In this document: positions 6,890 through 11,956 of the stretch, piece by piece
Layout: each line of letters starts with the position of its first letter
Numbering within the stretch: position 1 is the stretch's first letter
Origin: Bacteroidales bacterium
Lineage (GTDB): Bacteria; Bacteroidota; Bacteroidia; Bacteroidales; BM520
Assembly: GCA_031276035.1 (NCBI GenBank)
Contig: JAISNV010000031.1
Span: forward strand, 1 to 64,000
Reading direction: 5' to 3'
Length of the DNA stretch: 64,000 nt
Position numbers and translations under genes: made by a program
The notes under the pieces: model-generated
What the model was told of the DNA's origin: nothing
What the model saw: only the letters and a program-made list of their open reading frames with translations
Database searches by the model: none

Positions 6890-9800
6890 TTAAATTATTT
6901 CTATTTGTTTTAACTCACTGATTATAAATGGATATAAAACAGTATTAATTGCAAAAATATTTTCAGAAACCTTCTCAATTAATCCGTATCGTATTAAGAT
7001 ATTTATATCTTGCTTAACTTCGTTCATAGATCGTTTGCTTATAGCAAAGATTCTTTCAAAAGACATACTGTTATGGATCACGAATTGAGCCAAGAAAATT
7101 ATCTGTTGCCTTGTTAATAGTTGAAACGGAATACTTTCCGGAAGTTTGGGCTCATGAATATAGATAGTTTCATCGGTAACTTTATCAATACACGATAACC
7201 ACAATTTAAGCGCCGAACTAATATTTCCATCGGTAAACCGGTAATATCCCGTAAACAGTTTAGCGTAATTCCATTGATGAAAACTATCTTCGTTTTTACC
7301 GTTGATCACAAATTTATAACTGCCAGCTTTATGCCTGCGCATAATAATTGCTTCAAGTTCCTGAGCGTTAAACGGCGACAAACTAACATTCCCGACAACA
7401 ACTTTATTAATATTCGTTGTAAGTTTCATCGCGTTGAAACCAGTATTATTAGCGGTAAGAATAAAGAGATAATCTTTAGAATATGTTTCAATCATTGATA
7501 TTAATTTATCAATAACATTATTTCCTCCTTCGTTTCTATGCCACCATTGTTCAATATTATCGAAAATAAATACCGAACCTTTGGGAATATCTTCAATAAC
7601 TTTCTCAATTACCGAAGTGGGAGCAGCATCTATTGATCTGACAAATGCACGTTCGAATTTATTTACAGAATGACTTCCTCCCGTAACGGATTTAATATTA
7701 TAAATCTGACTTCCGGGCAAGAGATTTTTTGCTACATGATATGAGAAAAAACTTTTCCCTGTTCCGATATTTCCGGTAATTATAATAGCGCCTTGTCTCA
7801 ATCGTTGATACTGAGTTAAATAAATTTTGAAATCATTAATTTCCTTAGATTTACCAACCCACAAATCTTTATTATAATGTTGAGAAGCACTATACAGTTG
7901 CTTATAAGTATAAGGAAGCTCCTTATCAACACTTTGTTTTAAGGTTACTTTTGAAATATCATTAAAATACTTTCTAAGTCGCTCCTGATCACTGTCACGT
8001 TCGACAAGATAATTCGCATAATTTTTCCCCGAACTTCTTTTATACCAGAATTGTGTGAAATTATGACGGAAGAAATTCGAAATCTTTGCCGGAATACTTA
8101 CAATTTTATCTTTTTTATTAAAAATAGATTCAATATTTACAATGTTCTTTATATTTTCGGCATTTGTGATAAATGTTTCTAACTGAAGTTTTTCAAAAGT
8201 AAGTTCATAAACACTAAACACTTCCTCTTTTTCTTCTGCAAAATTATCATTCAACTTATCAATTTCGGCATTAATCATTTCACTGATTTTATCAACAACT
8301 GTTTTATAATTATCAATGAAAGACAGTTGAGTTACAATTGATTTTTCCTGTCCGAGAGAATTCTGGCAATATTGCATTAAATTACCAAGCAATGATTTAA
8401 TGTGTTTATAATAATAATTTTGAAGTATGTAATCCATTAATCTTGAAACAGAAAACTCAAAGAATTTTGGAATTTCTTCGTCCGATGTTTCGTATTGAGT
8501 TAGGCTGTCATTACTAATTACGGTTATTGTATTTGTTTGACGTTGAATAACTTTAATAATTCTATCATAAACTTCATTCAATAATGTATAAAGATCTAAA
8601 CCGCTTTCGGTATCAGATTGACTATCAATATCAATCTGATCAATTGAAGATGTTGTTTTAACAGAATTCAAAAATGATTTATGTTTGAAAACTACAACAT
8701 TATCAATATAATCTTTAACTCCCGAAATAATTTCCTCAGTACCGACATATAATTTTACTTTCAGAAATGTTAAATCAATATTTACTAATACCCTGTTTAA
8801 AATATTCGGAAATACATGAGACAGAGTTTTGTAATCTTCATTAATACTGCTTAACGATTCTTGAACTTTCTTAGATGTGCGTTTAAAATTAAATGAAATG
8901 TCACCGAAATTAATTATATTAAAATAATCAATTATTTCATTAAGATATTTTGTTTTGATATTATTAATTTCCGGATAGATATTTTGCCAAGAATTAATTA
9001 TTCCTTCTTTCAAAACTAATATTTCATTCTGTAACGATTTGATTATTTCTTTGCCGGATACATCATCTTTATTATCAGTTTTTTTAATCAACTGGATATT
9101 AACATCATTAATTAAATACACTATCTTAGTAAGATCGTAATAATAATTAACAGTAAGTGCTTTAATCTTCGTATAAACTTCAGAAATAATCTCATTATAC
9201 ATTTGATACAAATAAAATGAAATTGCATTTGAAATATTTACCTTATACTGGTATAAACTTTCCGGGTCAGTATTCTTTTTATAATACTTTCTGATTTTAC
9301 GTTTTAACTTCAGCAACTCTTTTGAATCATCAGGACTGTCATAAGAAATATCTTGATTATACAGAACCGTAAAATCTTTCGGAATTGAATTACAAATAGA
9401 ATTAATTTCATTAAAGAAGTCGTTATCAATACTAAGCGTCAGCGAATCATATTCAATAAGTTTATTGTTAATTAAATCAGTAACATTCATCTTAATCATA
9501 TTAGCCGCAGCAGCCATATATTTTTTAATCTCAACAGGAGAGTCGAGCTTTTTATAATTGATTTCGATAGAATTATTGATATTATCCAATAAAGAAGTAA
9601 GATAGGATTGCAATACATCAATTTTAACATTGACGGATTTTCTTGAAGCCTCAGCAAGGTTTTCTTTCAATGTTATCACAAATTCAGCGGCTTCAGGACG
9701 TAACGGAAGTGCAATATCATGATAAGGTGTATCCGACGGCTTTGTAATAATATGCTTTGTAACAATATCGAAGTTACTTAATGTCATAAAATCTTTCGAA

Positions 9801-11956
9801 GCCTCAACAAAAATTATTGTTTTGGCAATCTTACTGATATCATAAATTTTTGAATACGCTACATTCGGATTTTTAGTAAAATCAGGCATTGCAACAAAAA
9901 TAAGGTCCGAATCGGTACTATGACTTTCTATTAAGCTATGAACGGACTTACCGTCAATACCGTTATTAATAATTCTGATATCGGCAACAATTCTCATCTG
10001 ATTAATAACAGTATTGAGTTTATTATAAATAAAGCTGTAAGCGCTGTTATTGTTGCTAACAACATTAATTCTGAGCGAACTCTGACTCCAATTTTCGTTA
10101 GTCCAGAGTAATTTAACAAGGTTAAGAGTAAAAGCAATATCCTGTTCGCCCGGAGTTATCCAGATATCTATAATCTTTTTATTTCCGAAACCGTTGTCAT
10201 CATTAAAATGCATCATCAGGATATTCTTACTTAAACTGCTAATATTTGATAACATTTGACTAAATCTTTCATGATCGGCGGTAGTGTTATCAAATCCAAG
10301 AATTATAGTATTCGGTTCGATACCGGTAAATCCGTAAGTTCCGGAAATCGTTTCGATTCCTTCATAAATATTCCTGCATTTATATATCTTAGCTTCAATC
10401 CATTGATCTTTATTTCCTTCTTCAATAATCGAATTGTCGTCATCAGCAATATAAAACTTATTATCAGTAGTAATTTTAAGATTAAAGTTGCTAAGGAAAC
10501 CGTGTTTGCCTATAAGCCATTTTCCAAAATCAACTAAATACGGTCGCGAGTCATTGCCGCCACTAAATACAATAACATTTGGCTGCCAATTCCTATTTTC
10601 GAGTTTCCTTTTGCTTATTCTTCTCAAAGAATTTCGAGTAATGGTTAGAAGTACGCTCTGCCAGACATCGCCGTATTCAAGTTGAATTTTCTTCCTTCTA
10701 ATGTATAAATAAAGCAATCCCATTACAAGAAATGATAGCAACATAGCAACTTTGTTAAGTTCAAACATCACAAATATGCAGGCAATAAAACCGACTAATC
10801 CTATATATCTGCTAACATTAAAACTCGGACGAAAATCGGTACTCGACCATTTTTCCAATACAAATGCAAGATTGATAAAAGCGTATGACACCATAAAGAA
10901 CATTGTTGCTATCGGCGCAATAACATTGAGATCGCCTATCAACAAAAAACATTCGGCAAGAATAATTATAAATATGAGCGCATTTCGCGGTTCATTGTTT
11001 TTACCATATCCTTTAGCGAAAAACTGCGGAATAATTTTATCATAGCCTATGGCTTGTAAAATTCTCGGAGCTCCTAAAATTGATCCTAAAGCGGTTGAAA
11101 TTGTAGCACCCCAGATTCCCAGGTAAACAAGAGTTGGGTTCCATGCAACTTTAGTAAGAAAGTTAGTATCGGTGAGCAGCAAGTTTCTATCAACAAAAAA
11201 GGCGAAGCAAATTGCTAAGGTAATGTATGTTACAAAACCCGTAGCTATTGCACTCATAACTCCAACAGGTATAGACTTTTTTGGATCTTTCAAATCGCCG
11301 GACATAGCAACACCGGTGGTAAACCCTGTTGCAGCCGGAAAGAAAATTCCAAATAATACCATAAACGGCAACTGAGTGTCAATTCCTGACAAATTAGGCG
11401 TAACAGGATGAATATCAGTATTGATAATAAATCCTAATATTATCGAAATAATTGACAGAATTACGGCGCCAAGGACAAAGTACTGTGTTTTAATTGCAGA
11501 AGACGTACTAATCAAGGCAATTACAGCAATTAGAATCAGTGTAATAGTTCCGATAAGTCTATATGCCGGAATTCCGGGAACCAATCCCAAAAAATTAGCA
11601 ATAGGTTCTATTGATAAAAACGATTCCGAAAAAGCAATTATTTGCAGAGCAATGGTAAGTATCATTGCAAGAGAAATTGCGATACCGATAGCACCGCCCA
11701 TAGGTAATCCCAAGCTTCTCGACAGTATATAGTAAATTCCTCCTGATTTTATTCTTTTGTCTGTAGCTATAGAAGATATACTTAATCCGGTTGAAAATGA
11801 TATAATGTGCGCTATAGCAATTATTATCAAAGTTTTATATAATCCGGCCTGACCAACAATCCAACCAAGACGCAAATACATAATTGCGCCTATGATAGTA
11901 AGCAAAGATGGAGTAAATACAGCAGCAAATGTGCCGTATTTTTTCGAATGTGCCAT
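6890..11956 (-). CDS. SLC12-like cation-chloride cotransporter fused to a P-loop ATPase and winged helix
   Basis: This 1688-residue protein has an unusual architecture. Residues 1 to about 430 form an amino acid-polyamine-organocation (APC) fold with about 12 membrane helices, including the SLC12 signature GAIMYLRLGWIVGQAG (23-38). Residues about 455-740 match the cytosolic C-terminal domain of SLC12 transporters (VIVFSGGNDSRPYLVDFGK; IIDIWITPGEQD near 600). Residues about 750-1330 are helical and probably coiled coil. A P-loop ATPase module follows: Walker A GNIGTGKS at 1395-1402, Walker B VFIFDN with Asp1466, and a sensor-like LTANN. The last 75 residues look like a winged helix. The family moves Na+/K+ with Cl- across the inner membrane. 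The ATPase part may sense or regulate. The gene lies in an operon with an outer-membrane protein gene upstream (37 bp) and an MscS-like gene downstream (5 bp). Confidence 0.88.
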   Translation of the reverse strand: MAHSKKYGTFAAVFTPSLLTIIGAIMYLRLGWIVGQAGLYKTLIIIAIAHIISFSTGLSISSIATDKRIKSGGIYYILSRSLGLPMGGAIGIAISLAMILTIALQIIAFSESFLSIEPIANFLGLVPGIPAYRLIGTITLILIAVIALISTSSAIKTQYFVLGAVILSIISIILGFIINTDIHPVTPNLSGIDTQLPFMVLFGIFFPAATGFTTGVAMSGDLKDPKKSIPVGVMSAIATGFVTYITLAICFAFFVDRNLLLTDTNFLTKVAWNPTLVYLGIWGATISTALGSILGAPRILQAIGYDKIIPQFFAKGYGKNNEPRNALIFIIILAECFLLIGDLNVIAPIATMFFMVSYAFINLAFVLEKWSSTDFRPSFNVSRYIGLVGFIACIFVMFELNKVAMLLSFLVMGLLYLYIRRKKIQLEYGDVWQSVLLTITRNSLRRISKRKLENRNWQPNVIVFSGGNDSRPYLVDFGKWLIGKHGFLSNFNLKITTDNKFYIADDDNSIIEEGNKDQWIEAKIYKCRNIYEGIETISGTYGFTGIEPNTIILGFDNTTADHERFSQMLSNISSLSKNILMMHFNDDNGFGNKKIIDIWITPGEQDIAFTLNLVKLLWTNENWSQSSLRINVVSNNNSAYSFIYNKLNTVINQMRIVADIRIINNGIDGKSVHSLIESHSTDSDLIFVAMPDFTKNPNVAYSKIYDISKIAKTIIFVEASKDFMTLSNFDIVTKHIITKPSDTPYHDIALPLRPEAAEFVITLKENLAEASRKSVNVKIDVLQSYLTSLLDNINNSIEINYKKLDSPVEIKKYMAAAANMIKMNVTDLINNKLIEYDSLTLSIDNDFFNEINSICNSIPKDFTVLYNQDISYDSPDDSKELLKLKRKIRKYYKKNTDPESLYQYKVNISNAISFYLYQMYNEIISEVYTKIKALTVNYYYDLTKIVYLINDVNIQLIKKTDNKDDVSGKEIIKSLQNEILVLKEGIINSWQNIYPEINNIKTKYLNEIIDYFNIINFGDISFNFKRTSKKVQESLSSINEDYKTLSHVFPNILNRVLVNIDLTFLKVKLYVGTEEIISGVKDYIDNVVVFKHKSFLNSVKTTSSIDQIDIDSQSDTESGLDLYTLLNEVYDRIIKVIQRQTNTITVISNDSLTQYETSDEEIPKFFEFSVSRLMDYILQNYYYKHIKSLLGNLMQYCQNSLGQEKSIVTQLSFIDNYKTVVDKISEMINAEIDKLNDNFAEEKEEVFSVYELTFEKLQLETFITNAENIKNIVNIESIFNKKDKIVSIPAKISNFFRHNFTQFWYKRSSGKNYANYLVERDSDQERLRKYFNDISKVTLKQSVDKELPYTYKQLYSASQHYNKDLWVGKSKEINDFKIYLTQYQRLRQGAIIITGNIGTGKSFFSYHVAKNLLPGSQIYNIKSVTGGSHSVNKFERAFVRSIDAAPTSVIEKVIEDIPKGSVFIFDNIEQWWHRNEGGNNVIDKLISMIETYSKDYLFILTANNTGFNAMKLTTNINKVVVGNVSLSPFNAQELEAIIMRRHKAGSYKFVINGKNEDSFHQWNYAKLFTGYYRFTDGNISSALKLWLSCIDKVTDETIYIHEPKLPESIPFQLLTRQQIIFLAQFVIHNSMSFERIFAISKRSMNEVKQDINILIRYGLIEKVSENIFAINTVLYPFIISELKQIEII

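Follow-up and report, generated by a model that had tools for sequence, protein, structure and literature searches.

Why should a secondary cation-chloride cotransporter carry an ATPase on the same polypeptide? The question is raised by a single reading frame in the window, by which we mean the whole stretch of 64,000 nucleotides analyzed here (contig JAISNV010000031.1 of the Bacteroidales bacterium assembly GCA_031276035.1). SLC12 cotransporters, among them the salt cotransporters of the kidney, are human drug targets (diuretics), and their control by cytosolic parts is a central question. We know of no secondary transporter that bears an AAA+ domain and of no operon that pairs an AAA+ ATPase with an MscS-type channel, and a search of the open-access literature turned up neither an SLC12-AAA fusion nor an AAA-MscS pair described before. 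The original prediction, made from the sequence, placed an SLC12 core, its cytosolic domain, a helical stretch of about 600 residues, an ATPase and a winged helix on one chain, and the open reading frame of 1688 codons, the domain matches and a structural model confirm this order (Table 1). Beyond that prediction lie an MscS-type gene downstream, which tracks the ATPase and not the SLC12 protein, the recurrence of that module on CPA exchangers, and the loss of the ATPase from one clade.

Table 1. Features of the fusion gene and its downstream neighbor, in window coordinates.
Feature	Position	Strand	Basis
SLC12-stalk-AAA+-winged helix fusion, 1688 aa	6890..11956	-	uninterrupted ORF; domain matches; same architecture in relatives
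SLC12 transmembrane core, residues 1-430	10667..11956	-	alignment to NKCC1, site tally
SLC12 cytosolic C-terminal domain, residues 431-690, KKIIDIW near residue 593	9887..10666	-	TIGR00930 to 673; KCC matches to 664
Soluble helical stalk in two related halves, residues 691-1330	7967..9886	-	AlphaFold model, hhalign
AAA+ ATPase core and lid, residues 1331-1600	7157..7966	-	PF00004, model, Foldseek
Walker A GNIGTGKS, residues 1395-1402	7751..7774	-	conserved in 66/66 homologues
Walker B region VFIFDNIEQWW, residues 1462-1472	7541..7573	-	acid at 1466/1467, W1471 and W1472 in 66/66
R1541-H1542 family signature, start of lid	7331..7336	-	66/66 homologues
Winged helix, about residues 1616-1670	6947..7111	-	model; weak MarR-like matches
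MscS-type channel, 245 aa	6147..6884	-	PF00924, profile, model, Foldseek

Occurrence of the fusion

A search of genome contigs with the single sequence found nothing, and a profile scan did find matches. The same domain order occurs in 13 aligned proteins, the window's included, and on about 60 named contigs, and among 60 relatives about a dozen genomes, drawn from many families, have it at full length. Of 295 Bacteroidales genomes searched with a profile of the stalk and ATPase, 85 gave a match, and in about 40 of these the frame measures 1650-1777 aa, the size of the SLC12 fusion. A scan of named genomes gave 80 loci, 66 of them classed as SLC12-stalk-ATPase with a readable downstream neighbor. 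The carriers are mostly Bacteroidales metagenome bins, as most of the loci sampled are metagenome bins, and rarely fall outside the Bacteroidales; bins of Crocinitomix, Ignavibacteriota and Myxococcota are also among them. The clustering of the two Myxococcota rows with each other (99% support) speaks against stray contamination. Furthermore, the fusion is found in two isolates, Perlabentimonas gracilis (L102) and Agaribacillus aureus (L143, on a 3.4-Mb contig). An assembly or frameshift artefact is thus ruled out by the intact reading frame, the same order in many relatives and these isolates, and the objection that homologues never hold both halves fails, since dozens do.

The SLC12 half and its ion sites

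All the best PDB relatives of the N-terminal half are SLC12 proteins (NKCC1, KCC and NCC, E down to 5e-73). This half matches PF00324 over residues 14-430 (E 5e-53) and the K-Cl cotransporter model TIGR00930 over residues 3-673 with E 7e-116, below the curated cutoff of TIGR00930, and it comprises both the SLC12 transmembrane core and the cytosolic domain. Ion-site residues were numbered by alignment to NKCC1 and their roles taken from published work (PMC7035313, PMC9645730). The window's protein has NKCC-type site segments in TM1 (LTIIG), TM6 (FPAATG) and TM8 (ATIST) and a tyrosine, Tyr358, in TM10. It keeps the equivalents of P496, T499, A610, S613 and Y686, whereas S614 is replaced by Thr (the Na+-site pair S613/S614 reading S and T within ATIST), N298 by Thr, W300 by Ile and Y383 by Gln (Gln105). 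Across the family, an alignment tally finds the Na+ site in most members (A610 in 72/76, S613 in 70/76, S614 in 67/76) and a tyrosine at the K+-site position of Tyr383 in 66 of the 76, so that the family is NKCC-like. The window's protein is putatively a cation-chloride cotransporter of the Na+-dependent type (NKCC/NCC-like). The window's own genus differs from the mostly tyrosine-bearing rest of the family in having Gln or His at the K+-site position (residue 105 in the window, 11640-11644). This recalls NCC, which does not transport K+ and has a histidine (His234) at the same place, and the genus may accordingly have lost K+ dependence, that is, have changed its ion selectivity.

In its core, cytosolic domain, P496, T499 and Y686 equivalents and Na+-site residues, the N-terminal half resembles the known SLC12 proteins (NKCC1, NCC, KCC and the Methanosarcina acetivorans protein of known C-terminal domain structure). 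Those proteins, however, stop after the cytosolic domain, without a stalk, an AAA+ domain or an MscS partner. Nucleotide binding in the SLC12 cytosolic region has been described, at a USP-like ATP site in the C-terminal domain of KCC (PMC8280820); in contrast, the ATPase found here is a separate and additional domain with Walker motifs, about 700 residues further on.

The stalk and the AAA+ ATPase

An AlphaFold model of residues 735-1688, built from 66 sequences (mean pLDDT 82), shows the stalk as long helices, with a small beta element breaking them at two points. These roughly 600 residues are an internal duplication, with the two halves related to each other (hhalign E 1.6e-5). The stalk has no relative in the PDB by sequence and matches no Pfam family; all the other parts of the system come from known superfamilies.

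In the C-terminal part, for which a structure prediction of residues 1330-1688 had been proposed, the model shows an AAA+ core, a lid and a winged helix with pLDDT of about 90. PF00004 matches above its cutoff over residues 1391-1504, and the Walker A motif lies exactly where it was first placed, with G1395, G1400, K1401 and S/T1402 kept in 66/66 aligned homologues. The Walker B acid, first assigned to Asp1466, is indeed acidic there in the window's protein, but most relatives have their acid at the next position: the 66 homologues have D (19), E (16) or N (31) at residue 1466, and D at 1467 in 55 cases, and every one of them has an acid at one or the other. W1471, W1472, R1541, H1542 and G1577 are likewise invariant among the 66. 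With Walker A and an acidic Walker B throughout, ATP binding by this domain, as predicted from its motifs, is near certain.

The original prediction had left the identity of this module between STAND and AAA. The AAA alternative stands; STAND membership is not supported, the nSTAND3 profile scoring 16.8 bits against a curated cutoff of 27.2. Foldseek places the module closest to archaeal ORC2/Cdc6 (1w5t, 2qby) and to RuvB; these targets match with a probability of 1.00, E-values of about 1e-7 to 1e-6 and TM-scores to the target mostly of 0.38-0.52, and the resemblance extends to core, lid and C-terminal winged helix. Sequence searches alone give the winged helix little support (PF25212, E 0.011; MarR-like chains, E about 0.02). 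AAA+ proteins of the ORC/Cdc6 and RuvB types commonly carry a winged helix attached to the lid, and with such best matches the simplest view of the one seen here is that it belongs to this standard equipment and does not signal DNA binding. Of the roles first suggested for the module, gating or sensing is the most likely, whereas nothing points to DNA partners, given this standard appendage and a membrane tether. The module differs from ORC/Cdc6 and RuvB in sharing only about 10-16% identity with them, in being tethered to the membrane by a transporter with no link to DNA, and in its own signatures, W1471-W1472 and R1541-H1542.

Linkage of an MscS-type channel to the ATPase

The next gene starts 5 bp past the stop codon of the fusion and encodes an MscS-type protein. 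PF00924 matches it above cutoff, a profile match to E. coli MscS (2vv5, E 2.4e-15) covers its whole length (residues 8-221), and in a Foldseek search with its model (pLDDT 88.7) all 50 matches listed are MscS-type channels. It thus has both the PF00924 beta domain and the MscS fold over its whole length, like known mechanosensitive channels of this family, from which it differs in its compact form of 235-260 aa and in being co-encoded with an AAA+ ATPase. A promoter and terminator scan gave no signal above shuffles.

An MscS gene adjoins 92 of 104 loci that contain the ATPase, whichever transporter is present: 59/66 where SLC12 is fused, 5/5 where a CPA exchanger is fused, 20/22 where no transporter is fused and 8/11 where the 5' end runs off the contig. 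The 104 loci are related and do not represent 104 independent events, but the linkage holds across separate architectures and phyla. In 68 of 78 named ATPase loci the MscS gene lies downstream, most commonly with a 4-bp overlap or within 40 bp (usual gap -4 to +40 bp). By contrast, it adjoins none of the 13 loci that lack the ATPase (0/9 for solo SLC12 genes, whose flanks are short, about 1.5 kb, and 0/4 for SLC12-stalk genes); the SLC12 halves of three interrupted fusions (L092, L115 and L144) were left out of this control, which would otherwise read 0/16. L092 had been considered as a natural split between SLC12 and ATPase genes and was rejected, a single in-frame stop separating its halves and its near relative L123 being intact; L115 and L144 are interrupted copies of the same kind. 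Adjacency to MscS, as a feature of gene order, shows shared function and not contact.

A separate observation concerns four loci labelled Flavobacteriales (L112, L124, L149 and L153), in which the ATPase region has an insertion of about 40 residues and no adjacent MscS gene was found.

Transporter exchange and parallel losses

The stalk and ATPase are not confined to SLC12 proteins. At L166 they are fused to a CPA exchanger (PF00999, E 7e-19); L167, L172 and L185 have similar multi-TM N-termini, while that of L173 is divergent, and MscS is present at all five loci. Since the SLC12-fused and CPA-fused versions are homologous end to end over stalk as well as ATPase, they represent one homologous unit and not merely two similar P-loops. 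TrkH and TrkA lie beside the CPA-fused gene, both by Pfam at L173 and, at L166, TrkH by Pfam and TrkA by reading; genes of the corresponding sizes occupy the same place at L172 and L185. Also near the CPA-fused gene, at L166:9691-10956 and L173:12279-13499, lies a further membrane protein (400-420 aa, about 7-9 helices) that matches no Pfam family.

The trees, which came from quick searches and leave several forks open, place L031 and L084, with 98% support, inside the SLC12-fused clade. L031 (G007:C482, 3142-11295) holds TrkH, TrkA, a CPA2 exchanger, a stand-alone stalk-ATPase of 941 aa and MscS in one run, and the position of L031 and L084 implies that SLC12 disappeared there and was replaced by another transporter, with MscS retained. 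At L175 and L178 the order is module, MscS and a separate exchanger. Genomes of Flavobacteriaceae type (the family name is a guess) have the module and MscS only, with no obvious transporter beside them, from which it follows that the transporter is not essential.

The reverse situation is found in six Bacteroidales loci (L180-L184 and L189, from G476, G502, G599, G682, G577 and G646) that have SLC12 and stalk without the ATPase. Their proteins are of 1310-1345 aa where complete (L189 runs off its contig) and end where the ATPase would start. The four counted in the control above, together with L180 and L189, form one clade (95%) nested inside the fused SLC12 tree, and this clade lost its ATPase at the domain boundary. 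Their conserved neighbors are a small lipoprotein-like protein, a secreted protein of about 150 aa and an aminotransferase-like gene, with no MscS gene among them. The sister of this clade, L126, has kept the ATPase but already lacks an adjacent MscS, and the order of losses, which is that of a single event, is consistent with an ATPase that serves the channel.

Discussion

Taken with the invariant ATP-binding motifs, the conserved MscS linkage, the re-use of the module and its parallel losses lead us to propose, with a probability of roughly 0.58, that the fusion and the MscS-type channel form a unit for ion and osmotic homeostasis in which the ATPase is a nucleotide switch controlling uptake and release together. 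Its regulator would be a cytosolic stalk of two related helical units ending in an AAA+ ATPase of ORC/Cdc6 type that bears a winged helix, held permanently on the cotransporter, and the channel encoded 5 bp downstream would join it. The nucleotide state of the ATPase would govern the channel encoded with it as well as, by way of the stalk, the transporter, in such a way that ions are not taken up and leaked simultaneously. As a guess at direction, the ATP-bound state would favor uptake with the channel shut, and loss of ATP or stress the reverse; that ATP is hydrolyzed, that the ATPase touches the channel and in which sense it acts are inferences. A stronger formulation, which we put forward tentatively and would not quite bet on, is that of a portable system in which a secondary cation transporter and an MscS channel are physically linked through the AAA+ ATPase in one ATP-controlled complex for uptake and release, the transporter being swapped in evolution (SLC12, CPA exchanger, Trk neighbors).

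Alternatively, the ATPase might regulate only the transporter to which it is attached, with MscS as a co-expressed safety valve lacking physical or allosteric contact. The ATPase is fused directly to the transporter, with MscS encoded separately; seven SLC12-ATPase fusions (L100, L103, L105, L108, L110, L118 and L126) lack an adjacent MscS gene (a count for the locus itself, as the gene could lie elsewhere in the genome); and ATP binding by an SLC12 cytosolic domain has a precedent in the USP-like site of KCC1 (PMC8280820). Nevertheless, the channel is kept at 20 of the 22 loci without a fused transporter (one of them, L092, being an interrupted fusion) and is absent where only SLC12 is left (0/13), which makes this explanation unlikely. 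Somewhat less probable still is an assembly or remodelling factor, a chaperone that would insert, assemble or disassemble channel and transporter rather than gate them: the Foldseek neighbors do include the remodelling AAA+ proteins CbbX and ClpC, and one ATPase serves transporters of unrelated fold, but the winged-helix appendage is typical of ORC/Cdc6/RuvB and a permanent one-to-one fusion to its client would be unusual for such a factor.

A defense or biological-conflict system, in which the ATPase would sense a trigger and open a membrane channel to kill or stop the cell, appears improbable. An ATPase with a membrane effector is a common logic in defense and the distribution is patchy (85/295 Bacteroidales genomes); however, neither the fusion nor the MscS protein matches a PADLOC model at E 0.1, the housekeeping neighbors (TrmL-like methylase, sigma factor, TPR genes) are conserved within the genus, and the partners are ion transporters (TrkH, TrkA, CPA, SLC12) with site residues kept. 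There is very little to recommend a primary pump powered by the ATPase. In its favor are the invariant ATPase motifs on a transporter chain, but the SLC12 ion-site residues of secondary cotransport are largely kept, the same module sits on APC-fold and CPA-fold transporters and also occurs on its own, and no AAA+ protein is known to drive carriers of this kind. A membrane-bound transcription regulator, with the modelled winged helix on DNA, is just as improbable, as this helix is integral to ORC/RuvB-type AAA+ proteins and the conserved partner is a channel, with no regulatory gene or conserved site found.

The closest analogy for the proposed joint switch is with TrkAH and KtrAB, in which a cytosolic nucleotide-binding regulator controls a K+ transporter, and genes for TrkH and TrkA indeed lie beside the CPA-fused version; unlike theirs, the regulator here is an AAA+ protein and not an RCK/Rossmann ring, and it is fused to the transporter. 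The system appears to be a switch, not described before, that puts ion flux under the control of ATP, and we class it conservatively under nucleotide-regulated ion transport. Evolution has attached one ATPase to SLC12, transferred it to Na+/H+ exchangers that are unrelated and retained MscS alongside, and if the proposed coupling is true this would be, to our knowledge, the first instance in which an AAA+ protein controls secondary ion transport. In this compact bacterial setting, the way in which nucleotides control a cotransporter and a release channel could be tested by single-residue changes, and natural variants without the ATPase, the channel or the transporter are available for comparison.

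Among the stand-alone forms, L160-L165 and other f77 loci encode stalk-ATPases of about 930-1020 aa (413 aa or less in some genomes) with no adjoining transporter, and their MscS protein is longer, at 300-360 aa, with an extra N-terminal segment.
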